Assembly: GCA_009917695.1 (NCBI GenBank)
Contig: JAACJG010000003.1
Coordinates: forward strand, 372,001 to 436,000
Direction: 5' to 3'
Origin: Candidatus Rifleibacterium amylolyticum
GTDB lineage: Bacteria; Muiribacteriota; Ozemobacteria; Ozemobacterales; Ozemobacteraceae
Length of the DNA stretch: 64,000 nucleotides
Below the pieces are notes generated by a model. That model did no database searches and was not told the origin of the DNA. It saw only the letters and a list, made by a program, of their open reading frames with translations. Made by a program: the position numbers and the translations under genes. Below, one piece after another: positions 18,815-31,479 of this stretch. How positions within the stretch are numbered: position 1 is the stretch's first letter; each line of letters starts with the position of its first letter.

Positions 18815-20547
18815 ATTTTCTCCAGATATCGATAAAATTCGGTGAAGCGTTTGAACTTTTGTGGAGCCAGTTTGTCGCCATTTCTATATGATTCTAGATA
18901 TTCAAGCCACAATCCATATTTTTGGTTGCTTAGAGCCTGGTAATGACTGAAATGCGGAGTGAGAAAGAATTTCCGACCCTGTTTTTGTGCCAGCGCTGAG
19001 GCCTTGTCAGCTATTTTGCTGAAGGCTCGTATCTTATGATGCTGCCTGGCTCTGTGCATGATTCGGAATAATGTCGGGTGAGATTCTTTTAGCAGCATCA
19101 TCAGCCAGGTCTCACGAAACCCGCGGTCGGTAGATTCCATCGCTTCAACGAACAGTCTGCTGAAGTGAACGCCGCAGTTGTACTCCCAGTGGTCACATGT
19201 GTTGATCATTTCACTCTGATACGCCTGACGGTAAGATTTGGCACTGTCTGGCGGTACAATGGCGGCTGTCATATAATCGCGAACGGCGGCGGTCTGGTAG
19301 ACTCGGATTTCATTGTTGACGACGTTGCCATTAAAAAAGCAGCGTTTGAAAACGAAGCCTGGCTCAAGATCAGAACTGCTGTTGGTTAACCCATATTGGC
19401 AAAGGCTTTCTTCTATTGCAGGCAGCAGGCTGGCCTTAAGCTCAGAGCTCGACCAGATAACTTTTTTATGGAGTTCAGCTCCCTGTTCTGAAGTTTGTTG
19501 AAAGATATTTATCGCGGCGAGCCGGCCTGTGCCCTTTTCTTTCGGTTCTATGCTGTATGTGGGATAAAGTTGAATTCTTTCAAGATTGACGATGTCTTTG
19601 TGAAAATACAGCCTGGGGCAGGGTATGTTTTTTTCCGGCTGTTTCCATGGGTTGTCGAAATAGTTTATTCCCGACCCGGTTGACAGGAAAACCAGATGGT
19701 TCTGGCCGCTGCCGATGTCGGTGTTGTCGAGAAACTGCCAGTTGATTTTGACGAAACCAGGCACCATTCCAAGCTTCAGTCGCATGTCCTGCGAATACAG
19801 GTGCTTCTCGTCTGCGATCAGATCGATGACCAGCTTGCGATCCCTTTCTGATTTCTCGACCCAGTCAGATACGCTTTTGTTCAATGTTGCCTTATGCACT
19901 GGCGGAAAAATGACATTGTCAGAGGTTCTGTCCTTGATCAATTCAACCGGCCCATAATAATTGTCGCGAAACAGATAATATCGATTGAGTCTTACCTCTT
20001 TGCATATCTTTGCATTGTTGCCAAACAGGCCTTTCAGGATAGCCGCAAGATCACTTTTTGATCTCAGATATGCAGCGTCGATGTTGATTTTGAGATATCC
20101 CAGGTCGCTGACAAAAGCATCATTGATTCTTCCGTTGATGTTGAAAGGTACATAAAGATATTGCCATTGTGAGTTTCTATCTGATGGGCTTTCAGAAATG
20201 CGGGCGATACCTTTCTCATACAGCGGTTCTCCGTTTTGCTTAAGCGGAGAAAAAAGAGCCGTTTTGCCTGTAAAAACCTGCGGTTGCAGCAACTTTTCTT
20301 CGGCTTCTGAAAGGCTTGTGTGCAGAATAAAATGCCCGGAAGTGTGGCGCAGGTAGAATACTTTTTCTACTCCCGCCAGTTCAACAAAAATTGCTCTTTC
20401 GCTGCCGGCATGACCTGTCAGATCGCTGAAGAAGTTTTCGTCTAGCCGCTGCACAAACAGGCGGTCAAGATCAACGGCTATAGCCAGGTTTGCCGCAAAT
20501 GTCAGCAGAAAGACCAGTAAAAATCTGGTGACGGCTCTATTTCTCAC
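18805..20547 (-). CDS. Exported hypothetical protein
   Basis: I choose GTG 20547 as start (580 residues). It overlaps the Uma2 stop by 11 bases and puts a classic signal peptide (Arg-rich, then FLLVFLLTFAANLAIA) at the very N-terminus. ATG 20604 or the frame start at 20631 would add a long basic tail and overlap the Uma2 gene much further. The mature protein is rich in aromatic residues and Lys. It contains several short blocks such as NRYYLFRDNYYGP and HWEYNCGVHFSRLF, but I recognise no family. Charged surface and the absence of further TM helices suggest a periplasmic or surface-associated soluble protein. It is co-transcribed with the 17240-18814 gene. Confidence 0.7.
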   Translation of the reverse strand: MRNRAVTRFLLVFLLTFAANLAIAVDLDRLFVQRLDENFFSDLTGHAGSERAIFVELAGVEKVFYLRHTSGHFILHTSLSEAEEKLLQPQVFTGKTALFSPLKQNGEPLYEKGIARISESPSDRNSQWQYLYVPFNINGRINDAFVSDLGYLKINIDAAYLRSKSDLAAILKGLFGNNAKICKEVRLNRYYLFRDNYYGPVELIKDRTSDNVIFPPVHKATLNKSVSDWVEKSERDRKLVIDLIADEKHLYSQDMRLKLGMVPGFVKINWQFLDNTDIGSGQNHLVFLSTGSGINYFDNPWKQPEKNIPCPRLYFHKDIVNLERIQLYPTYSIEPKEKGTGRLAAINIFQQTSEQGAELHKKVIWSSSELKASLLPAIEESLCQYGLTNSSSDLEPGFVFKRCFFNGNVVNNEIRVYQTAAVRDYMTAAIVPPDSAKSYRQAYQSEMINTCDHWEYNCGVHFSRLFVEAMESTDRGFRETWLMMLLKESHPTLFRIMHRARQHHKIRAFSKIADKASALAQKQGRKFFLTPHFSHYQALSNQKYGLWLEYLESYRNGDKLAPQKFKRFTEFYRYLEKICD

Positions 20548-21247
20548 GTTTTTTCTTATTGACGGTGTTTGCTCTGGTTTTTTTGCTGCTTTTTCGGGAA
20601 TCATTCTTTTTTGATGCCGTTTTGCCCGCATATTCGAACGGAATTTCTTTTACTACATATCCATCCGGAACCGGGCCGAACACTTCTATCAGATCAATGT
20701 TGAGATCGGGAAAAATGGCTGACTGCGCGCCCGATAAACGGTCAAAAATCTCAGGTTTGCCATATAAACCGTCTTTGAGGCGGTAGGCCATCACCATGCC
20801 GTCGGTCGGATGCACCAGCCAGAACTCTCTGACTCCGGTTTTCTCATACAATGCGCGTTTTTTGACGTTGTCATAAGACATGGTTGCCGGCGACAGAATC
20901 TCGACAATGAGGTCGGGCGTGCCAAGGCAGCCTTTCTCATCGAGTTTGTCGGGATCGCAGATAACCGAAATGTCTGGCTGTACAACGTCGAAAATTTCTT
21001 CATCTCTTTTCGACCTGCTCGCAAGGCGAACGTCGAAAGGAGCAACGAAAACTTTGCATGTCTTGTTTTTAAAATGATTGGCAAATTGCCTGGTGAATTC
21101 AACCAGTATCTCCTGATGAATGCGCAGCGGCGCATTCATGGCATACGAAACGCCATCGATTATTTCAAAGCGCTCATCATTGGGCCAATTTAGATAATCA
21201 GCGTAAGAGAGTTCCTCATGCGTATCTCTCTGTGCATTTCCCGCCAT
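20537..21247 (-). CDS. Uma2 family (DUF820) PD-(D/E)XK nuclease-like protein
   Basis: 236 residues from ATG 21247, which has GGAGGTG six bases upstream; the longer in-frame start lacks a site. The Uma2 signature is plain: RFEIIDGVSYAMNAP near residue 25, PDISVI, then GTPDLIVEILSP (Asp and Glu of the PD-ExK core) and YEKTGVREFWLV. The family is widely scattered in cyanobacteria and other lineages. It is thought to have a nuclease fold, but no function has been settled. A Lys-rich C-terminal tail of about 30 residues follows the domain. It heads the two exported-protein genes, though the relation may be positional only. A decent promoter lies just upstream. Confidence 0.85.
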   Translation of the reverse strand: MAGNAQRDTHEELSYADYLNWPNDERFEIIDGVSYAMNAPLRIHQEILVEFTRQFANHFKNKTCKVFVAPFDVRLASRSKRDEEIFDVVQPDISVICDPDKLDEKGCLGTPDLIVEILSPATMSYDNVKKRALYEKTGVREFWLVHPTDGMVMAYRLKDGLYGKPEIFDRLSGAQSAIFPDLNIDLIEVFGPVPDGYVVKEIPFEYAGKTASKKNDSRKSSKKTRANTVNKKKREK

Positions 21248-21273
21248 AATGACACCTCCCCGAATCTTTATCG

Positions 21274-21303
21274 ATTGTAACACAACCCCGGCAACAAAAG
21301 CAA
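21274..21303 (-). promoter_or_regulatory. Candidate sigma-70 promoter of the Uma2 gene
   Basis: On the minus strand TTGCTT, an 18-base spacer and TACAAT stand 27 bases before the chosen start. The -10 matches five of six consensus bases, the -35 three of six. Confidence 0.45.
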
Positions 21304-21558: not shown

Positions 21559-23379
21559 TTATGCGTGAGCGAGGTCGCGGTAGGTCGGGCAGGTTGCCAT
21601 CAGTTCGGCGTGCGTGCCGGTCGCTTCGATACGACCGTCTTTGAGCACTATGATGCGGTCGGCCATCATCGCGGTTGCCATGCGATGCGTTACGATCAGA
21701 CAGGTGATCGCGCCGTATTCATCAGCGAGATCGGCCCAGAGCTTCTTTTCGTTGGCAGCGTCGAGACTGGCCGTGATGTCGTCCATCAGCAGCAGTTCTG
21801 GTCGCCCGACCAATGCGCGCGCAATCGACAGGCGCTGCCTCTGACCGCCAGACAAGGTAACGCCACGTTGTCCGACCGGTTCGGTATAGCCGCCCGGAAA
21901 CGCCAGCACTTCCTTTTCGAACTGCGCCAGTCGCGCACACGACTGAATCAGCGCTTCTGGCTGATTGCGCCAGAAGTCGATGTTGGTTTTGATCGTTTCA
22001 GAAAAGATTACCGGCTCCTGCTGGATATACCCGATTTTATCGCGGAAAGACTGCTTTCTGACCTCCGACAGGGGCGTGTCATTGATCATCACACGACCTT
22101 CATCCGGCTTCATGACTCCCGAAATCAGGTTCAGAAGAGTTGTCTTGCCTGAGCCGATCTGGCCGACCACCGCAACCTTTTCGCCTTTGCGCAATGCAAA
22201 GTTGAGATCTTTGAACGCGAAAGGCTCCTTGTCACTTTCGAGCTTTTCCAGTGTGTTGTGCTGAAAACTGACATTTTCGAAGCGTATGCTTTCGATGCTG
22301 GCAATGTCGGTGCTGCCATCAGAATCGAGCTGCTGCCAGGCGCGGTCGGCTTCCTGCAAATCTTCGAGACGATCAATTGATACGCAGGCCTGCGTCAGCG
22401 TCACCAGCATCATTGGTATGTCCATGAGCGGGTAGATGATCATGCCGAGGTAACTGAAGAAGGCGTAGTAAGCACCCAGAGACAGTTCACCACGAATGAC
22501 CATGATGCCGCCGAAGATCAGCACGAGAATCTCACCTATGTAGTTGAGAAACTCGAAAAAGACCATGAACATGCCCCATAGCGTATCGACACGCACTTCC
22601 TGCTGGATGCGTTTCTGCATCAGCCGGTCGAACAGGCTGATCTGCTGCTGCTGAGAGTTGAACGAGGTGATGATCTTGATGCCAGAATAGGCGGCTTCGA
22701 GAAAGTCGTTGGTTTCTGACATGCCTTCCTGCACTTCCTTGAAACTCTCGCCGAAGCTGGTTTCAAGTCTGATGAAGATGTAAAGCATTATTGGTAGAGG
22801 AATACAGGCGAGAATCGCCAGTTTCCAGTTCAGATACATCATCGTCGCCAGACAGAAGAAGATAATGCTGGCCGAGTTAACCGCCCGGAAGATACCTGAG
22901 CAGCACAGCCACGAAAGCCCTGGTGGCCAGCTTCTTATGTCTTCGGTGAGACGGGTCACCAGGTCGCCGGTGCGGAACTTGAGAAAGAATCGGTGCCCTT
23001 TTGAGAGTATTTCTGCGAAGAATTTTTCGCGGAAATAGACTTCAAAAAGCACGTTCATTTTAGCCCGGAAATACGGGTAAATTCCCGAAAATACCGGGCC
23101 AAGTCCCATCGCCAGCAGCATCAGCAGCATGCGGTTGCGCTCACTCTGAGCGTCTGCCAGAGTGATCTTACCGGCCTGATAGCTTTCGAGACCGCTTACC
23201 AGTCCATCAACGATGTATTTCAGCACTATCGGAAACAGCACTGCGATAATCGTCGAGAGCATGGTCAGAAGCAGCAAGAACAGCACCATGCGCCAGTGCG
23301 CGCGGTATTCGTTCCATATCCATTTTATATAGTAGGTTCGATTATTTCTTAGTTTTCTTTCTTTTGCTGGCTGTTTCAT
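21559..23379 (-). CDS. ABC exporter half-transporter, degenerate ATP-site subunit
   Basis: 606 residues: a six-helix type IV exporter membrane domain (about 30-330) fused to an ATPase domain. Walker A is GQIGSGKTT, the signature is canonical LSGGQRQR (from residue 509) and the H-loop is His565. The Walker B segment reads LLLMDDI, so the catalytic Glu is Asp534. Such a change usually marks the slow or inactive site of heterodimeric exporters, many of which pump drugs, lipids or peptides. Its start overlaps the stop of the partner gene by four bases, with AGGAG upstream. Both subunits are therefore made in equal amounts and should assemble together. Substrate unknown. Confidence 0.93.
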   Translation of the reverse strand: MKQPAKERKLRNNRTYYIKWIWNEYRAHWRMVLFLLLLTMLSTIIAVLFPIVLKYIVDGLVSGLESYQAGKITLADAQSERNRMLLMLLAMGLGPVFSGIYPYFRAKMNVLFEVYFREKFFAEILSKGHRFFLKFRTGDLVTRLTEDIRSWPPGLSWLCCSGIFRAVNSASIIFFCLATMMYLNWKLAILACIPLPIMLYIFIRLETSFGESFKEVQEGMSETNDFLEAAYSGIKIITSFNSQQQQISLFDRLMQKRIQQEVRVDTLWGMFMVFFEFLNYIGEILVLIFGGIMVIRGELSLGAYYAFFSYLGMIIYPLMDIPMMLVTLTQACVSIDRLEDLQEADRAWQQLDSDGSTDIASIESIRFENVSFQHNTLEKLESDKEPFAFKDLNFALRKGEKVAVVGQIGSGKTTLLNLISGVMKPDEGRVMINDTPLSEVRKQSFRDKIGYIQQEPVIFSETIKTNIDFWRNQPEALIQSCARLAQFEKEVLAFPGGYTEPVGQRGVTLSGGQRQRLSIARALVGRPELLLMDDITASLDAANEKKLWADLADEYGAITCLIVTHRMATAMMADRIIVLKDGRIEATGTHAELMATCPTYRDLAHA

Positions 23380-25181
23380 GCAACAGCTCCTTTTACTTCA
23401 CCGTTTTCCTCGAGTTCGGAAAAACCATTGCGCAGATCACTGCCGGTCTGTATTGCTACCAGCTCACGGTAGATACCCTGCTGACGCATCAGATCTTCGT
23501 GATTGCCCTGCTGTATGAGCAGACCCTTTTCGAATACAAGAATGCGGTCGGCTTTGCGAATCGTGCTGAGACGATGGGCGATGACTATGCAAGTGCGACC
23601 CCGCATAAGTTTTTCCATCGAATTCTGCAGTTCGCGTTCGGTGATTACGTCTACTGACGAAGTTGCTTCGTCGAGAATAAGCAGATCAGGATCTTTAACC
23701 ATCGCCCGCGTATATGAAAGCAGTTGGCGCTCTCCATAAGAGAGATTGCCGCCCCGCTCAGCCAGCACGGTCTGGTAGCCCTGCGGCTGTTTCATGATGA
23801 AATCGTGCGCTCCCAGTTCTTGAGCCGCTTTGATAACGGTTTCGTCATCGACGTCAGTATGAAACGCCTTGAGGTTTTCCATTATCGTGCCCGGGAACAG
23901 GTAGATTTCCTGAAGAACCAGCGCGATTTTGCGGCGCCAGTCGATCAGCCTGACGCTTGCGATATCTCGCCCGTCGACGGTTATGCGCCCGCTGGTCGGA
24001 TCGTAGAAGCGCAGCAGCAGGTTGATGCAGGTCGTTTTGCCTGAGCCGCTCGCCCCGACGATCGCCAGTTGCTGGCCGCGCGGTATCGAGAACGAGGCGT
24101 TCTTGAGCACTACCTCGCTGTCGTAGGCAAAGCTGATATCTTCGAATTCTATGCTCTTTTCAAGAGCCAGTTCGGGCGCCTGTTCGCCATTGTCGCGCAC
24201 AGCCGGCTCGGTATCGAGAATGTCAAACAGGCGTACGCCGGCGGCCAGAGCTGTCTGCATCTGAGCCAGAACTTCGACCAGACTTTCGAGCGGTCGGAAA
24301 AACTGGCGCATCAGCTCGATGAACATGACCATGGTTCCGACGGTCATCGTTCCCTCAAACACGCGTGTGCTACAGTAGGCGAAGAGTATCATTATCGAAC
24401 CGATTTCGGTGCAGAACCTGAAGCTCGGTGAGAACAGCGCGTATTCAATGAAGGCTGCCCGGCATTCGAGATCGGCTTTATCCTGATTGAAGTTATGCAT
24501 GTTGGCCATGATGTCGGTCTCGCGACCGTGCACCTTGATCAGCGGCACACCCTGAATATATTCGGTCAGATAGCCGGTCAGCTGACTGCCTTTTTCTCTT
24601 ACCTTCGTGTACAGAGATCTGATGTAACTCAGGTAGAAGAACAGCAGCAGCGAAACCACTACCATGGCTGCCAGCGCGAAGATGCCAACTCTGGCGTCTT
24701 CGCGGAACAGCACGATGACCGTGCCGAACACCAGCAGAGCGCTGGCAAAGAGCTGCGCCGAAGATTGTGTGAACAGCGATTTGAGCTGATTCGTATCTGA
24801 TTCAGTGCGGGTTATCAGTTTGCCGCTCTGGTTCTGGTCGAAGAAGCGCATACCCTGCCCGAGAATGTGAGCGAACAGCTTGCTTTTGATTCCGGCCACC
24901 ATTTCGGCGCCGATTCTGGCCATGATTTTTACGCGCACATAAAGGGTAACCGCTCCGACGAAAAGACAGAGAATGAAGAATCCGGCGAGTTTAAGTGCCA
25001 TTTCCACGTCTTTTTGCGGTATCGCGGTATCGATAATCGAGCGCAGAATCATCGGCCTGATCAGGTGCACTGCCGTAACCACCAGCATGGTGAGCATGAC
25101 GATGCCTATCTGCCCGAGATACGGGCTGAAATAGGGCAGCAGTCTTTTTAATACCGATTTATTACTATTTTTACTGGACAT
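23376..25181 (-). CDS. ABC exporter half-transporter, catalytic ATP-site subunit
   Basis: 601 residues with the same membrane-plus-ATPase architecture. Here Walker B is canonical, LLILDEATSSVD with Glu505, and His536 is the H-loop. The signature is altered to LSYGE (residues 480-484) instead of LSGGQ. In the heterodimer, this altered signature faces the degenerate Walker B of the partner, while the partner's LSGGQ faces this Glu505, giving one good and one poor ATP site. No Shine-Dalgarno sequence is visible before ATG 25181. Together with the leader elements between 25243 and 25512, this suggests regulated expression. Confidence 0.93.
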   Translation of the reverse strand: MSSKNSNKSVLKRLLPYFSPYLGQIGIVMLTMLVVTAVHLIRPMILRSIIDTAIPQKDVEMALKLAGFFILCLFVGAVTLYVRVKIMARIGAEMVAGIKSKLFAHILGQGMRFFDQNQSGKLITRTESDTNQLKSLFTQSSAQLFASALLVFGTVIVLFREDARVGIFALAAMVVVSLLLFFYLSYIRSLYTKVREKGSQLTGYLTEYIQGVPLIKVHGRETDIMANMHNFNQDKADLECRAAFIEYALFSPSFRFCTEIGSIMILFAYCSTRVFEGTMTVGTMVMFIELMRQFFRPLESLVEVLAQMQTALAAGVRLFDILDTEPAVRDNGEQAPELALEKSIEFEDISFAYDSEVVLKNASFSIPRGQQLAIVGASGSGKTTCINLLLRFYDPTSGRITVDGRDIASVRLIDWRRKIALVLQEIYLFPGTIMENLKAFHTDVDDETVIKAAQELGAHDFIMKQPQGYQTVLAERGGNLSYGERQLLSYTRAMVKDPDLLILDEATSSVDVITERELQNSMEKLMRGRTCIVIAHRLSTIRKADRILVFEKGLLIQQGNHEDLMRQQGIYRELVAIQTGSDLRNGFSELEENGEVKGAVA

Positions 25182-25242
25182 ATATATTTAGAGTTTCTCT
25201 TGAGTTAACAGGCCGTGAGAAGCCGGGTAGCGTTTTTGTCTG

Positions 25243-25275
25243 TCAGATGTTCCTGGTTTTGTTTGCTTTGCTCAT
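25243..25275 (-). CDS. Possible 10-codon leader mini-ORF before the ABC exporter
   Basis: ATG 25275 has GGGAG nine bases upstream and opens a 10-residue frame (MSKANKTRNI) ending 61 bases before the exporter start. It is in frame with an ATG in the loop of the upstream hairpin (25353), which would give 36 residues. It is too short to be called a gene with confidence, but a good ribosome site in a regulatory leader makes it worth recording. Confidence 0.35.
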   Translation of the reverse strand: MSKANKTRNI

Positions 25276-25334
25276 ATTTTTGTTCTCCCGTGTTGTTAAT
25301 TGTGGCGATGGCGGGATAAAGGGTTCGAGACGCA

Positions 25335-25369
25335 AGAAGCGGGTTGCCTCCATAAGGCAACCCGCTTCT
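25335..25369 (-). promoter_or_regulatory. Strong hairpin in the ABC exporter leader (candidate attenuator)
   Basis: A perfect 14-bp stem, AGAAGCGGGTTGCC / GGCAACCCGCTTCT, with a seven-base loop. It lies 15 bases past the stop of the 18-codon leader ORF and 150 bases before the exporter. The tail after it on the minus strand is only weakly U-rich (TTCTTGCG). Eight bases of its loop and arm (25346-25353) are exactly complementary to part of the leader ORF (25404-25411), giving a possible competing structure. Confidence 0.6.
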
Positions 25370-25384
25370 GAAAACGGCTTTCAG

Positions 25385-25441
25385 TTACAGATCTGCTGCG
25401 CAGATGGAGGCGGTAACGCTAAAAATCGGGTGATTATACAT
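25385..25441 (-). CDS. 18-residue leader peptide ORF upstream of the ABC exporter
   Basis: ATG 25441 is preceded by a full AGGAGG eight bases away and opens MYNHPIFSVTASICAADL followed by TAA. A perfect consensus promoter lies 43 bases further upstream, so this is the first translatable frame of the exporter transcript. The mRNA folds locally: ATCTGC-GCA-GCAGAT inside the last codons, a second small stem after the stop, then the strong hairpin at 25335-25369. The arrangement resembles translated leaders of antibiotic-induced genes, such as the one before the heterodimeric exporter bmrCD of Bacillus subtilis. The peptide has no homologue I know. Confidence 0.6.
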   Translation of the reverse strand: MYNHPIFSVTASICAADL

Positions 25442-25483
25442 GTTTTTTGCCTCCTGTTCGTTAAATTCAAATTTATTGCCTGA

Positions 25484-25512
25484 ATTATATTGCCCCGCGT
25501 GCGACTTGTCAA
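25484..25512 (-). promoter_or_regulatory. Consensus sigma-70 promoter of the ABC exporter leader
   Basis: On the minus strand TTGACA, a 17-base spacer and TATAAT: both hexamers match consensus exactly. Transcription should begin near 25477, about 295 bases before the exporter start codon, leaving a long leader. Confidence 0.85.
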
Positions 25513-25634: not shown

Positions 25635-28586
25635 ATGATGCAAAAATTTAAAACAGCAAGGCGGGCAGACCGTTTGATTCTTCTGCTGGCCGGTTTTGTG
25701 GTGCTTCTGATGCCTTTGTGGTTTTTCAACAGCCTGTTAAGGACTTCGCTGCAAAGAACCCGGGAATCTTCTCTCTCATTGCTGCGAGAAGAGCTTCTAC
25801 AGTCGGCAGAAAAGGTCAGGCGCGCCCTTAAGCCCGAGTTCTACGTCGAAGATGTTCTGCGCGAAGTTCACCGGGAAGTACTGCCGCAGATACCACCGGA
25901 TCTCATTGTGATGCAGCCTCAGAAGGATTTCGGGCATGACATCTTCGATGCTTCGTTGCCGGTGAAAATGTTGCAGGGCCTCCGTCGGCGCGGTCTTGAC
26001 GCGATTCTTGTGCATGTCGATGCGCCGGAATTCGAAAAATATCATTACTGGCATTCACAGGAACTCCAGAGCCAGTGTGACGAACCGGACATGCTGGCCC
26101 TGTCGCTTTCTTTCATCAACTATATAACAGCTGTGGAGCTTCATCAGAAGCGTTACGCCAAACTGTGGTACCGTTTTACCCCCGTTGAAAATCTTCCGGA
26201 TAATATCAAACGCGGTCATACCATAGACAAAATAAAGGCGCCATTTGCCTACCTGACCCGGTTCAGCGAAATGCTCGGTGTTCATGACCGGGCAACCGAA
26301 CATTTCACCGACTATTTTTCGCAGCAGTCGATCTTTCGCTACTCATTCTGCTGCATGAGTGCAGTTAACCTGCATGGTGCCTACACCGTCGTCGTGCCGC
26401 AGAAGTCTGTCAGGCCTGAAGAAATGCTGAAAAGCGCACTGTGTATCAACAATCTCGATCACTCTGTCTCTATTACCGACAAGCGTTCCAACCAGTCCGC
26501 TTTTGTCGTTACCCCGGATGGTGCTGATTATTTTATCAAAGCGCCTTCTGAGTTCTGGAACCATCTCCGGTTTTCCGGACTATCAGTTAGATCAGCATTC
26601 TCTGGCAGTAGCGCAGGTTTTGATATAAGAATCTCCGGCCGTCATAAACCCGCGATCATGAGTCTGGAGTCACAATACCGTCTGTTTCGGCTGACAGCAT
26701 CGCTCTTATTGATAGTGTACTGTGCTGCGGCATTTCATTTCTGGTTGTTCGGTCTGCATCTGCGCCTGTCGGTTCGCCGCCGGCTGGCGATGATTCTGGG
26801 GTTGATCGTGATTCTGCCGGTTCTGGGAGTCGGTGCGCTGACGCTGCTGGCGCTGCGTTCTTTTGAACGTGTTGCCGATAATCATCTGATTCAATATACC
26901 CGGAATAATCTACATGAAGTCGCGCTTTTGAACGATGAGAATCTGCTGCGCCAGATGGGGGCAGGTATCGAGATCAAGCGGCGGGTTGAAGCTGAAACTT
27001 CTGATGAGAAAGATTTGATGAAGAGCCTTGAGCGGCCTGAAGATGATTTGAAATGGTTTTTGGCGTGGACCAATTCTATAACGGAGTGTCGAGATGATGG
27101 TGTTATCGCTCAATACAATGGTTTTCGTCTGCCCGCTCCTGCCAACCGGCTCGTGCACAGTCTCGTCGATAAATACATGACAAGCCTTGGTCTGCTCAAA
27201 AGTGGTAGAAAATCGGATTTTTCGCGGACCATGACTCTTGGAATGCTTGACAATTGCGTTACCTCGGCGCTTGAAGAAGCCTGGATGGTACATGAGGGAA
27301 CGGTTCAGCGTGAGCTGACGCATACTGCCGATACCAGTCGCGCCAACCTGCTGGTCGTCAAAAGCGGTAGCGGCCGCTACCGTCTTTTATATCATCGAGT
27401 TTCAAGCCTGGGCGAACATGTGAACAAATATCTGACCAGTCTGGCTGAGAAAAATCCCGGCTGGTTTGTAAGGCGTGGGCTATATGGCAACGTCAGTGTG
27501 GGAGTGCGACAGAGAAAGGTCGGAGAATTGTTCGCGTATACCTGGCCGCCCGATTGTCTGCTTTCTCCAGCCATGACGTTCAGTTTTGAGAGAGCAATGT
27601 CGTCGCGAGATCATGGCCATGGTGTCATCAAACGAGATAATGAGCTCGAAGTGAGAGCATGGCGATATGAGGAAGGTAAGAGCTCTATTCTGGCGGCAAC
27701 CGGTAAAAGCGATGGCATAAAGCTGGCTTTTGCCGATCTTACGGCGAAGATGCTGCTTCCAGCTCTCTTTGGCTATGCCATTCTTCTTCTATACTTTGTG
27801 ACATCTGTCATCGCTGAGTTTATCAATGGCCCGGTCAGAATACTCAATTCTGGAGTCAATGATCTGAACGATGAGAACTATGGTGTTCTGATCGCCGGGT
27901 TTTCACAGGACGAATTTTCCAAGGTTACATCAGCATTCAATGAAATGTCAGTTGCTCTCAAACAGAGAGAAATGATAAAACGCTACGTTTCCCGAGCCCT
28001 GCTTGAAAGAGTGCAGACATCGGATGGCCTTGTCTCGGAAGAAGGGAAAATGATCAGAGTTGCTGTTCTTGCCTCGGATATCAGAAGTTTCACGGCGATC
28101 AGCGAGAAGTATTCGCCGGCAGAAGTCGTCGACATGCTGAATTCGTATTTTACCAGCATGGAATCGGCTATCAGCACTCATGGTGGCTTTATCGACAAAT
28201 ACATCGGCGATGCCATACAGGCAGTGTTTTACGATGATCCAGCTCTGGATAACTTTATTGTACGCGCTGCTCGGTCGGCTCTACAGATGCGGCGCAATCT
28301 CGCTGCTCTGAATCGTTCGCGCCGGGAGCAGGGTTTGTTCACTATCGAAAATGGTATCGGAATCGACAGCGGTCTCGTCGTTTCCGGCAGTATCGGCAGC
28401 GAAAACGGTCGCAAAGACTTTACCATTGTTGGCAGAGTTATCGAACAGGCAGCTCTTCTCGAATCCCTTACGGTGAATACCCGAAGCAGAATTCTAATAA
28501 GCCGGTCCGCCATCGGCAATGCTGGGACGGGCTTAATTACACGGGAGTTTGCCGCTGATTCACTGGAGTTGCTGGATGTCGCATAA
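25635..28586 (+). CDS. Membrane receptor-type class III nucleotide cyclase, metal-site (C1-like) subunit
   Basis: 983 residues: TM1 about 14-34, an outer segment, TM2 about 352-375, TM3 about 384-405, a second outer segment, TM4 about 708-730, HAMP, then a class III cyclase domain (about 805-975). Both metal-binding Asp are present (Asp815 in SDIRSFT, Asp859 in GDAIQAVF), as are Lys855 and Asp928 of the adenine-selecting pair. The transition-state Asn and Arg of the VNxAxR motif are replaced by Glu937 and Leu941. Alone it should be inactive. The next gene has the reverse pattern, so I infer a heterodimeric adenylate cyclase in the inner membrane. The stop overlaps the second gene by 11 bases. 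Confidence 0.88.
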   Translation: MMQKFKTARRADRLILLLAGFVVLLMPLWFFNSLLRTSLQRTRESSLSLLREELLQSAEKVRRALKPEFYVEDVLREVHREVLPQIPPDLIVMQPQKDFGHDIFDASLPVKMLQGLRRRGLDAILVHVDAPEFEKYHYWHSQELQSQCDEPDMLALSLSFINYITAVELHQKRYAKLWYRFTPVENLPDNIKRGHTIDKIKAPFAYLTRFSEMLGVHDRATEHFTDYFSQQSIFRYSFCCMSAVNLHGAYTVVVPQKSVRPEEMLKSALCINNLDHSVSITDKRSNQSAFVVTPDGADYFIKAPSEFWNHLRFSGLSVRSAFSGSSAGFDIRISGRHKPAIMSLESQYRLFRLTASLLLIVYCAAAFHFWLFGLHLRLSVRRRLAMILGLIVILPVLGVGALTLLALRSFERVADNHLIQYTRNNLHEVALLNDENLLRQMGAGIEIKRRVEAETSDEKDLMKSLERPEDDLKWFLAWTNSITECRDDGVIAQYNGFRLPAPANRLVHSLVDKYMTSLGLLKSGRKSDFSRTMTLGMLDNCVTSALEEAWMVHEGTVQRELTHTADTSRANLLVVKSGSGRYRLLYHRVSSLGEHVNKYLTSLAEKNPGWFVRRGLYGNVSVGVRQRKVGELFAYTWPPDCLLSPAMTFSFERAMSSRDHGHGVIKRDNELEVRAWRYEEGKSSILAATGKSDGIKLAFADLTAKMLLPALFGYAILLLYFVTSVIAEFINGPVRILNSGVNDLNDENYGVLIAGFSQDEFSKVTSAFNEMSVALKQREMIKRYVSRALLERVQTSDGLVSEEGKMIRVAVLASDIRSFTAISEKYSPAEVVDMLNSYFTSMESAISTHGGFIDKYIGDAIQAVFYDDPALDNFIVRAARSALQMRRNLAALNRSRREQGLFTIENGIGIDSGLVVSGSIGSENGRKDFTIVGRVIEQAALLESLTVNTRSRILISRSAIGNAGTGLITREFAADSLELLDVA

Positions 28587-31479
28587 AAAAAGAACTCTGA
28601 TCAGTGAAAAGGTTTCTATCTCCGCTGCCGGACTGTTTCTGACATGGCTTTTGATGGTAGTTATTCCGGTTGCCATTTCTTTTATGGCTCTGCATTACTT
28701 CCTTGATGAATATGCCAGCTATTCGGAAACCGGAAAGCTTGCCGATGCTTACAACCAGCTTGAGCTCTACAGGAGCGCTACGGTTGTCGAAAACTTTCTG
28801 ACAGCCCGCACAGCAGTCATATCTGATATGTCTGCCGACAAATTTACCCGAAACGGCCTGGTTGGGCTGAAAAGCCATATCGACAACGCTATCGGCGGCG
28901 AAAGCATTCTGTGTGTTTTTTTTGATCGTGATTGCAGAAATGTCATGGCCATACCCGGCAACTCCGCTGAAATGCCGGGAATGGTTCTGCCCCCAGCTTC
29001 TCTCATGAAGAGGCAGATTCAGTTCCTGTACCAGCAGATGCACGGTTCTGATCAGAAAAATCAGCAGAACAGGACTCTGACGTCTGAAGCTCAGCGCCAG
29101 GCCCTTTCCATGCAGCAACTCTTCAAAACCATAACGCCGGTGACGCTCAGAACCGATCGGGCCGTCAAAAGCTTTTCAGCGCATTATGGCGGCGAACTTT
29201 ATTTTTTATATGTCGAATTCAGGCACCGCTCTGGCGGGCCTGATGGCTGTCTGATCATTCTGAGGGGTCAGGATTTCTCGACGGACTTTATGTTGAAAAC
29301 TTTGCAGCGGCGATTTCCCCTGTGCCGGGTGGCCTCGCGCGAAATTGACGTTGGCAGAAGCGAGCGGCAGCCAGAAATCATGCACAGCGGAGTATTGCGG
29401 CTGAATGATCGTCTTCTCATCACCGCTCCTGCTGATCAGCGCTTCGTCAGACATGTGATTCATGGCGGCGGCATCGTGCTCAGGGAAAATGAGAGCCGTG
29501 CCGTACCGTTTCTGCAGTATCATCTGCCCCTGACGTCGATGCAGCATCATTTTACCGCGGCCCGCCGCGGCTTTGCCGTTATTGCGGCTATACTGGTGTG
29601 TCTGTCCGGTCTTTATTGTCTGCGATCCGCCTTGTTCGGAATAGAACTTACCGGCAGTTTCAAGAGAAGGATTATGGCTACCACTGCGTTGGCGGCGCTG
29701 TTCCCCTTTACTTTCTTTGCCACCGGGTTCTATCTGCATCTGCAATATGACGAGTTTCTCGGCAAAATAAACCTGCTGCAGCATGTAAATGCCAGGCTGG
29801 CCATTTTCAACAATGATCTCGACCAGTATTTTGCCGACATCGAAGGCGTTCTCGCCATGGATCTGCAGCAGATCAACAAAAACAACTATTTCGATGATGA
29901 GCAGGTTCAGAAGATATTTGCCGGCATTGGCGGGCGGGTTCCGATATCGCGCATATTTCTGCAAAGACCGGATGGCCCGGTTGTAACGGAGTTCGCTGAT
30001 AAAATGTCGCGATATGACGAGAACGATCTGAGCACTGCCATCGAGACATTTTTTCCACGACGAACTCTCCAGTTGTTGCAGGAGACAGGTGTTGTCGACA
30101 GAACCCGGCAGGACATTCTCAGTATCCCCGGAAACAATATCAAAGTAGCGCTTATCGGCACTTCCATGATTTCGAACGGTTCTTTTTACAATCTGAATCT
30201 GTCTGACTATCCGGTATGGCTATCCAATTTCAAAATCACCGATAAAGATGCTGATGGCCGCCGGACCGTGCTGGGCCTTGTGTTCGCACGGCTGGAACCG
30301 GCGCCATTGCTCTCCGATTTTCTTGCGAAGAGCGAATTTGCAGCTTTGTCTTATCGTGAGGAATATGGGAATTACCGGATCGAATATGCATTTTTTCCTA
30401 TCGAAAGAACCGGTATGCAGCAGATCTGGCATGGCAGCGGATTCACCGCTAACGAAATTATGCAGCAGGCCGCCGCGCGTAACCGAACAGAGACCGTTCC
30501 CACTACATCTGATTCTGGAGATGAGAGCTTCGTCATCAGCCGGCTTAATCAGGGAATACCGCATATTGCCGTGGCGCTGGCACGACCGCGGGGTATAGTG
30601 ACGAACTTGCGGACATCTCTGATGATAGGTCTGGTAAGTCTGCTCTACCTGTTTCTTCTTCTGTTCATTGCCGGTAAGATGCTTGACCTGTTCTTCGTCG
30701 CACCGGTAATCGAGCTGGCAGACTGTGCTGAAAAAATTGCCCGCGGCGGCGATTCATGGTCGCTCAAATTATCTACCGGCGATGAACTCGAAGAACTCAA
30801 CGAAAGTTTTGTCGGCATGGTCAAAGGTCTGCAGCAACGAAATATGCTCAAAGACTACGTTTCGCAAGACGCTTATTCAGATCTGGCTGCGACTGACGGC
30901 CAGAACCTGGCTCCTGGCGGTGAATATCGTGAGTGCACTGTTTTTTTTGCTGCGATAAAGGATGCCGGCAATGTTGCCGACGAGTCTTCGCCGCAGCAGG
31001 TTGTCGAGTTTCTCAACCGTTTCACGACGATTGGCGACAGAATCGCCAGGGAGAACAACGGCAGTATCGACAAGATTATCAACCAGACGTTGATGCTGGT
31101 ATTCAGGGAAAATGCCGGCGATGAGACGATGCATGCCTTGCGGGCTGCCAGAGCCGCTCTGGAGTTGGCGTCGGCGGTTAAGGCCGCCGGCTACGCCGGA
31201 GTCTATGCCGGTATCGCTTCAGGAACGGTAATCTCAGGTAGAATAGGCTCTTATCAGGGCAAACTTGATTTTACCGTCATCGGCAATCCGGTAAATCTCG
31301 CGGCCAGACTTAAAAATGAGGCAGCCGAAAGCACCACCGGCATCATCATTTCGGGTTCGACCATGCGTCTTCTCAAGGGGGCCGGTCGCGTAAATTTCCT
31401 GCGAAGATGTTCTTTGAAGGGTAAAGCCCGTGAATACAACATCTACGAATTGATCGATCTGCGCGATCAGCCAGGGTAA
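28576..31479 (+). CDS. Membrane receptor-type class III nucleotide cyclase, transition-state (C2-like) subunit
   Basis: I place the start at ATG 28576 (967 residues), with GGAG eight bases upstream and an 11-base overlap with the preceding gene; a longer frame start at 28549 lacks a site. Layout matches its partner: TM1 about 18-40, TM2-TM3 about 331-385, TM4 about 680-702, HAMP, and a cyclase domain about 783-950. Both metal Asp are lost (Ala793 in FFAAIKD, Gln837 in IINQT). Lys833, Asp898 in LDFTVIG, Asn907 and Arg911 in VNLAAR are intact. This complements the preceding subunit exactly, as in C2 of mammalian adenylyl cyclases. A CAGGG-TAAA-CCCTG hairpin spans the stop. Confidence 0.88.
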   Translation: MSHKKRTLISEKVSISAAGLFLTWLLMVVIPVAISFMALHYFLDEYASYSETGKLADAYNQLELYRSATVVENFLTARTAVISDMSADKFTRNGLVGLKSHIDNAIGGESILCVFFDRDCRNVMAIPGNSAEMPGMVLPPASLMKRQIQFLYQQMHGSDQKNQQNRTLTSEAQRQALSMQQLFKTITPVTLRTDRAVKSFSAHYGGELYFLYVEFRHRSGGPDGCLIILRGQDFSTDFMLKTLQRRFPLCRVASREIDVGRSERQPEIMHSGVLRLNDRLLITAPADQRFVRHVIHGGGIVLRENESRAVPFLQYHLPLTSMQHHFTAARRGFAVIAAILVCLSGLYCLRSALFGIELTGSFKRRIMATTALAALFPFTFFATGFYLHLQYDEFLGKINLLQHVNARLAIFNNDLDQYFADIEGVLAMDLQQINKNNYFDDEQVQKIFAGIGGRVPISRIFLQRPDGPVVTEFADKMSRYDENDLSTAIETFFPRRTLQLLQETGVVDRTRQDILSIPGNNIKVALIGTSMISNGSFYNLNLSDYPVWLSNFKITDKDADGRRTVLGLVFARLEPAPLLSDFLAKSEFAALSYREEYGNYRIEYAFFPIERTGMQQIWHGSGFTANEIMQQAAARNRTETVPTTSDSGDESFVISRLNQGIPHIAVALARPRGIVTNLRTSLMIGLVSLLYLFLLLFIAGKMLDLFFVAPVIELADCAEKIARGGDSWSLKLSTGDELEELNESFVGMVKGLQQRNMLKDYVSQDAYSDLAATDGQNLAPGGEYRECTVFFAAIKDAGNVADESSPQQVVEFLNRFTTIGDRIARENNGSIDKIINQTLMLVFRENAGDETMHALRAARAALELASAVKAAGYAGVYAGIASGTVISGRIGSYQGKLDFTVIGNPVNLAARLKNEAAESTTGIIISGSTMRLLKGAGRVNFLRRCSLKGKAREYNIYELIDLRDQPG

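Follow-up and report, generated by a model that had tools for sequence, protein, structure and literature searches.

A candidate ribosome-mediated transcription attenuator ahead of a heterodimeric ABC exporter operon in Candidatus Riflebacteria

A two-gene ABC exporter operon and its leader

The window analysed here, a 64,000-nt stretch of the Candidatus Rifleibacterium amylolyticum genome, carries two ABC half-transporter genes on its minus strand. The first (23376..25181) encodes a catalytic Walker B motif (DE) and the signature LSYGE, and the second (21559..23379), which overlaps gene 1 by 4 nt, encodes a degenerate Walker B motif (DD) and the signature LSGGQ. PF00664 and PF00005 are found in both half-transporters. 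One ATP site is of the consensus type and the other degenerate, an asymmetry typical of heterodimeric exporters. The two half-transporters match chains of the BmrC/BmrD, TM287/288 and TmrAB type and of P-glycoprotein. Judged by sequence, the pair is a heterodimeric ABC exporter of the BmrCD/TM287-288 type, as originally proposed, with two adjacent TMD+NBD halves and one degenerate ATP site. None of the curated NCBIfam drug-exporter models reaches its cut-off against the exporter, and the pump may export drugs. Downstream of the pair lies a Uma2-family (putative restriction endonuclease) gene (20537-21283, minus strand). Two consecutive, divergently oriented large proteins are encoded at 25635-31479 on the plus strand; an adenylate/guanylate cyclase domain lies at the C-terminus of the first, and the second is of similar layout.

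The exporter genes are preceded on the same strand by a leader. It starts with a sigma-70 consensus promoter (25484..25512) composed of TTGACA (25512-25507), a 17-nt spacer and TATAAT (25489-25484), which matches the consensus at 12/12 positions; the 5.39-Mb genome contains 12 such perfect sites, versus one for the reversed pattern. A Shine-Dalgarno sequence, AGGAGG (25455-25450), is followed by an ORF of 18 codons plus TAA (25441-25385) with the predicted peptide MYNHPIFSVTASICAADL. A hairpin of the form AGAAGCGGGTTGCC-loop-GGCAACCCGCTTCT (25369-25335) begins 16 nt past the end of this ORF, and a degenerate T-run (TTCTTGCGTCT, 25338-25328) overlaps the base of its 3′ arm. A second mini-ORF, MSKANKTRNI (25275-25243), lies behind GGGAGA, and no Shine-Dalgarno sequence precedes the exporter ATG (25181). 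The original prediction had listed an exact consensus promoter, a full AGGAGG, an 18-codon ORF, a perfect 14-bp hairpin, a second mini-ORF and an exporter lacking its own ribosome site. All of these elements and their coordinates were confirmed on the minus strand between 25512 and 25181, with an outer A-T pair added to the 14 bp of the hairpin.

The leader is conserved ahead of close exporter orthologs

We searched 39 genomes of the phylum and, more widely, 286 genomes; the closest relatives are represented by Candidatus Riflebacteria MAGs. The leader was present in all seven Riflebacteria genomes that have a close exporter ortholog (at least 66% identity) together with upstream DNA. These are the genome of the window itself (G000), G001-G005 from the same genus, and G012 from another genus, and four of the seven leader sequences are close relatives. 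In six carriers, whose exporter orthologs show 66-100% identity, we read the upstream DNA directly; in G003 the leader lies at a contig end, followed by the first codons of the exporter. The leader was found in none of the 279 other genomes searched, and it was absent where the exporter homolog shows 53% identity or less (G009, G016, G008, G020, G015, G017 and G010). No strong match occurred elsewhere in any of the 286 genomes. The weak matches to the leader model were reverse-strand matches to the palindromic hairpin, chance matches or terminators of similar shape, several of them intergenic. A second leader-like match in the same genome as the window (C17, 88% over 33 nt) is surrounded by unrelated sequence and was dropped. 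No Rfam family matched above its gathering score in the window.

Conservation within the leader is uneven. Relative to the three nearest genomes, identity is 96-100% in the 3′ half of the ORF, 88-100% in the spacer and 97-100% in the hairpin, compared with 67-70% in the 5′ half of the ORF and 73-78% in the DNA past the terminator. The DNA upstream of the promoter shows 53-66% identity, and shuffled sequences 53-55%. Since the 3′ half of the ORF and the hairpin are both far better conserved than the flanking DNA, this indicates selection on the two together.

The consensus promoter (with TACAAT in G012), the Shine-Dalgarno sequence and a predicted ORF of 17, 18 or 21 codons are present in 7/7 leaders. 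The distance from the Shine-Dalgarno sequence to the ATG is 6-9 nt throughout, and the spacing from the stop codon to the hairpin is 16 nt in six leaders and 12 nt in G012. A motif, A-[SF]-[ILV]-C-[AS], is kept near the end of the seven leader peptides. TCC, the least used serine codon in the neighbouring genes (21/307), is retained in 6/7 leaders, as is CCTCC, which is rare in coding DNA.

A promoter, Shine-Dalgarno sequence, ORF and terminator make a complete unit with a conserved peptide end, which would suit a stand-alone gene for an 18-residue peptide or a small RNA, with the exporter transcribed from its own promoter. We consider this very unlikely: no promoter-like site was found between the hairpin and the exporter in the window, the exporter ATG lies just 88 nt past the hairpin start in G003 and G004, and across the 286 genomes the leader occurs solely ahead of this exporter.

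The region between the hairpin and the exporter varies. The second mini-ORF is present in 5/7 leaders, with 10 codons behind GGGAGA or GAGAGA in G000, G001, G002 and G005 and 9 codons in G012. It is absent from G003 and G004, where the exporter ATG occupies nearly the same distance from the hairpin as the mini-ORF does elsewhere. In sequence, the mini-ORF is similar to the K/N-rich start of the exporter, as if copied from it. Between it and the exporter, a conserved CGGCTTCTCACGGCC (about 25230-25205, minus strand) has the potential to pair, in the read-through RNA, with the GCCGT..AGAAGC stretch of the leader; this pairing is broken in G005. In G012 (L028), the exporter operon is decayed, with an in-frame TGA at codon 12, internal deletions and gene 2 in fragments, and the leader remains. 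A MAG named as Erysipelotrichia (L041, SABV01000357.1) has an exporter 74% identical to that of Riflebacteria and is likely a mislabelled or contaminated bin.

A predicted intrinsic terminator precedes the exporter

By its sequence and folding, the hairpin is a predicted intrinsic terminator between the leader ORF and the exporter gene. Its energy is -29.4 kcal/mol (z -8.5 against shuffles), and 98/98 cells are paired across the seven leaders; the changes seen are one-sided and give G-U pairs, apart from a single two-sided one. The tail is a canonical T-run, TTTTTT or similar, in G004 (TTTTTTAC), G003 (TTTTTTTATT) and G012 (TTTTATTTTT), and is poorer in the clade of the window (TTCTTGCGTCT or similar). 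A formula-based terminator score was above 0 in all leaders and lower in the window's clade. A simple consensus terminator scan of the window did not call this hairpin because its T-run is too poor. We rejected the idea that the hairpin is a dispersed or mobile repeat, as each genome has a single copy of its exact pattern, located at the leader, apart from one extra copy in G006. In some species a longer ORF starts from an ATG within the terminator loop; it is interrupted in G002 and G003, G004 and G012 lack it, and it was likewise set aside.

The poor T-run in the window's clade, the lack of an exporter Shine-Dalgarno sequence and the mini-ORF in five leaders might suggest purely translational attenuation, in which the folds control access to the start of the exporter or of the second mini-ORF and not termination. 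The canonical T-runs of the three divergent leaders make this highly improbable. So does the distance of some 150 nt between the switch and the exporter start in the window, with intervening DNA that is dissimilar in the divergent species.

Two predicted alternative folds overlap the leader ORF

Segment 2 of the ORF (GCCTCCAT, 25411-25404, codons 11-13) can pair with the Shine-Dalgarno region or with the terminator loop. As the original prediction had stated, it is exactly complementary to ATGGAGGC (25353-25346) in the hairpin. Among 54-nt coding windows of the neighbouring genes, 1.1% contain any 8-bp complement to this hairpin and 0.36% contain CCTCC; the complementarity of ORF and hairpin is therefore unlikely to be due to chance. 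The 8-bp pairing, correct as far as it went, was incomplete: alone it would open just the top of the terminator, and it forms only the base of a larger predicted antiterminator of 24 bp (25346..25411). One end of this structure lies in ORF codon 11 and the other where the terminator 3′ arm begins, and in full it would take the terminator 5′ arm. Folding the stretch between GCCTCC (codon 11) and the GGC at the beginning of the 3′ arm, both included, gives -28.6 kcal/mol in the window (z -3.5), near the terminator's -29.4.

When each of the seven sequences was folded singly, a common layout emerged, with GCCTCC:GGAGGC at the base followed by GCA(GC) paired with (GT)TGC, the latter belonging to the terminator 5′ arm. 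A small CTGAAA/TTTCAG hairpin completes the structure in most leaders. The helix-closing pairs have probabilities of about 0.8-1.0; the exceptions are a single mismatch in G004 and position six in G012. Counted on alignment A2, 90.4% of cells in the 24 pairs are paired across the seven leaders, versus 35-52% with slid partners. Covariation, which the original prediction had offered as a check, is modest overall. Four pairs show two-sided changes, and two of them, both in G012, are convincing compensatory pairs (C-G to U-A in the base helix and A-U to U-A in the small hairpin); the other two come from G003, where the rest of the small hairpin is disrupted. Stability alone is non-significant in G004, G003 and G012 (z -0.8 to -0.95), and the G012 antiterminator is no better than synonymous recodings. 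Overall, the models predict an antiterminator that excludes the terminator and overlaps the ORF in 7/7 leaders.

The GCCTCC of the ORF is also complementary to GGAGGC at the Shine-Dalgarno sequence (25454-25449, segment 1), a pairing that the original prediction had overlooked. In the absence of a ribosome, this pairing has a probability of 0.94-1.0 in 7/7 leaders when the RNA ends with the ORF, and of at least 0.94 in 6/7 just before the hairpin. It can be read as a predicted anti-antiterminator. The conservation in relatives of the ORF and of the two alternative stems that the original prediction had in view, terminator and predicted antiterminator, extends to all seven leaders.

The terminator is the firmest part of the leader, and it might act as a constitutive set-point that lowers exporter expression, with read-through fixed independently of the ribosome and the ORF incidental. 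The patAB genes of Streptococcus pneumoniae are held down by a leader terminator whose inducing signal is not established (PMC4319486). We regard a set-point as unlikely here. It leaves unexplained the conserved 3′ half of the ORF, CCTCC with its rare serine codon, the fixed spacing from stop codon to hairpin (16 nt in six leaders, 12 in G012) and the shared antiterminator.

Ribosome position is predicted to set the fold

To place a ribosome in silico, we masked the RNA as far as 13 nt downstream of the first base in the A site. Without a ribosome, the probability of pairing between the ORF and the loop is 0-0.46 across the seven leaders in RNA ending at the loop. It is mostly 0.8-1.0 with the A site at codons 2 to 6 or 7 (2-8 in G012), G003 giving a lower value for the first of these positions and G004 for codons 6-7. 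For ribosomes at later codons it is about 0. A ribosome at the stop codon leaves the terminator 5′ arm free (0-0.01; 0.2 in G003). The predicted pattern is common to 7/7 leaders, with termination for an absent or finishing ribosome and read-through for a stall at about codons 2-7. In the full-length transcript, the terminator is always the minimum. Therefore the switch must be kinetic and co-transcriptional, as in other attenuators.

We propose the following mechanism. With no ribosome on the leader, GGAGGC of the Shine-Dalgarno region would pair with GCCTCC as the anti-antiterminator, the terminator would fold and transcription would stop. A ribosome running freely to the stop codon would cover the 3′ half of the ORF, again allowing the terminator to fold. 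If a ribosome were held early, its A site at roughly codons 2-7, it would occupy the Shine-Dalgarno sequence and leave GCCTCC and the rest of the ORF free. The freed ORF could then pair with the emerging 5′ arm and loop of the terminator as the antiterminator, and the polymerase would read into the exporter. The signal would therefore be slowed or blocked early elongation on the leader. Its simplest source would be ribosome-targeting antibiotics, which the pump may export; induction by translation inhibitors is what this scheme leads us to expect.

The cysteine at the fourth position of A-x-x-C in 7/7 leaders raises amino-acid attenuation, with a conserved Cys codon sensing charged tRNA. This is extremely improbable: in the ribosome scan, segment 2 is hidden by a ribosome waiting at the Cys codon (codon 14), an arrangement that would promote termination. 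The leader ORF also has no run of one codon, and the exporter has no CydDC assignment, its best model matches lying below cut-offs. In a more speculative version of ribosome control, which we hold to be doubtful, the peptide encoded by the leader, with A-S-I-C-A conserved at its end, would itself arrest ribosomes in response to a specific drug or metabolite, and the Shine-Dalgarno sequence would double as a switch arm. If this were true, these uncultured Riflebacteria would own a sensor dedicated to some natural inhibitor of ribosomes in their habitat, and initiation itself would arm the switch.

Taken together, one strong promoter, a short translated-looking ORF and three overlapping folds in seven genomes point to the leader as a probable ribosome-mediated transcription attenuator for the two-gene heterodimeric ABC exporter, like those of bmrCD and vmlR in Bacillus subtilis. 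The attenuator reading in the original prediction gains from the conservation, the canonical T-runs in divergent relatives and the ribosome-position switch predicted in 7/7 leaders, but its pairing was incomplete and it missed the anti-antiterminator that sequesters the Shine-Dalgarno sequence.

Comparison with known attenuators

The B. subtilis bmrCD genes were the first shown case of ribosome-mediated attenuation of an ABC multidrug exporter, and ribosome-targeting antibiotics raise read-through in bmrB-bmrCD (PMC4191407). That system likewise has a leader ORF, a terminator, an antiterminator and an anti-antiterminator before a heterodimeric ABC exporter (PMC4191407), and the exporter chains are related in sequence. 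However, bmrB has 53 codons, contains the terminator within the ORF and is under AbrB (PMC4191407). The leader ORF in the window has 18 codons, with a predicted terminator past the stop codon and a Shine-Dalgarno sequence that would form part of the anti-antiterminator.

In the vmlR leader of B. subtilis, a ribosome stalled on a short uORF blocks the anti-antiterminator, so that an antiterminator prevents intrinsic termination, and NusG pausing has been shown (PMC9226507). Unlike the present case, vmlR encodes an ABC-F ribosome protection protein, its leader ORF encodes a tripeptide, and the Shine-Dalgarno sequence is single-stranded in the repressed fold (PMC9226507). The patAB leader of S. 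pneumoniae also places an intrinsic terminator and a predicted antiterminator/anti-antiterminator before an ABC transporter, PatAB, whereas a leader ORF and an inducing signal are not established in the accessible part of that report (PMC4319486). Translation of a leader peptide links ribosome inhibition to terminator read-through in yxjB of B. subtilis (tylosin; PMC6851288) and in PA5471.1-armZ of Pseudomonas (PMC12057347); their targets differ from ours, being an rRNA methylase (PMC6851288) and an anti-repressor of MexXY (PMC12057347), respectively. The closest precedents are bmrCD, by target type and ribosome-mediated attenuation, and vmlR, by its three-structure logic; on paper, the Riflebacteria leader works like these.

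Our literature search found no publication linking Riflebacteria with attenuation. The attenuation logic is known from Bacillus, and as far as our searches show, the Riflebacteria example is new for the phylum. In the reports consulted, the examples belong to three genera: Bacillus, Streptococcus and Pseudomonas. With a conserved case in an uncultured phylum, the link between stalled ribosomes and pump expression would seem to extend beyond these genera.
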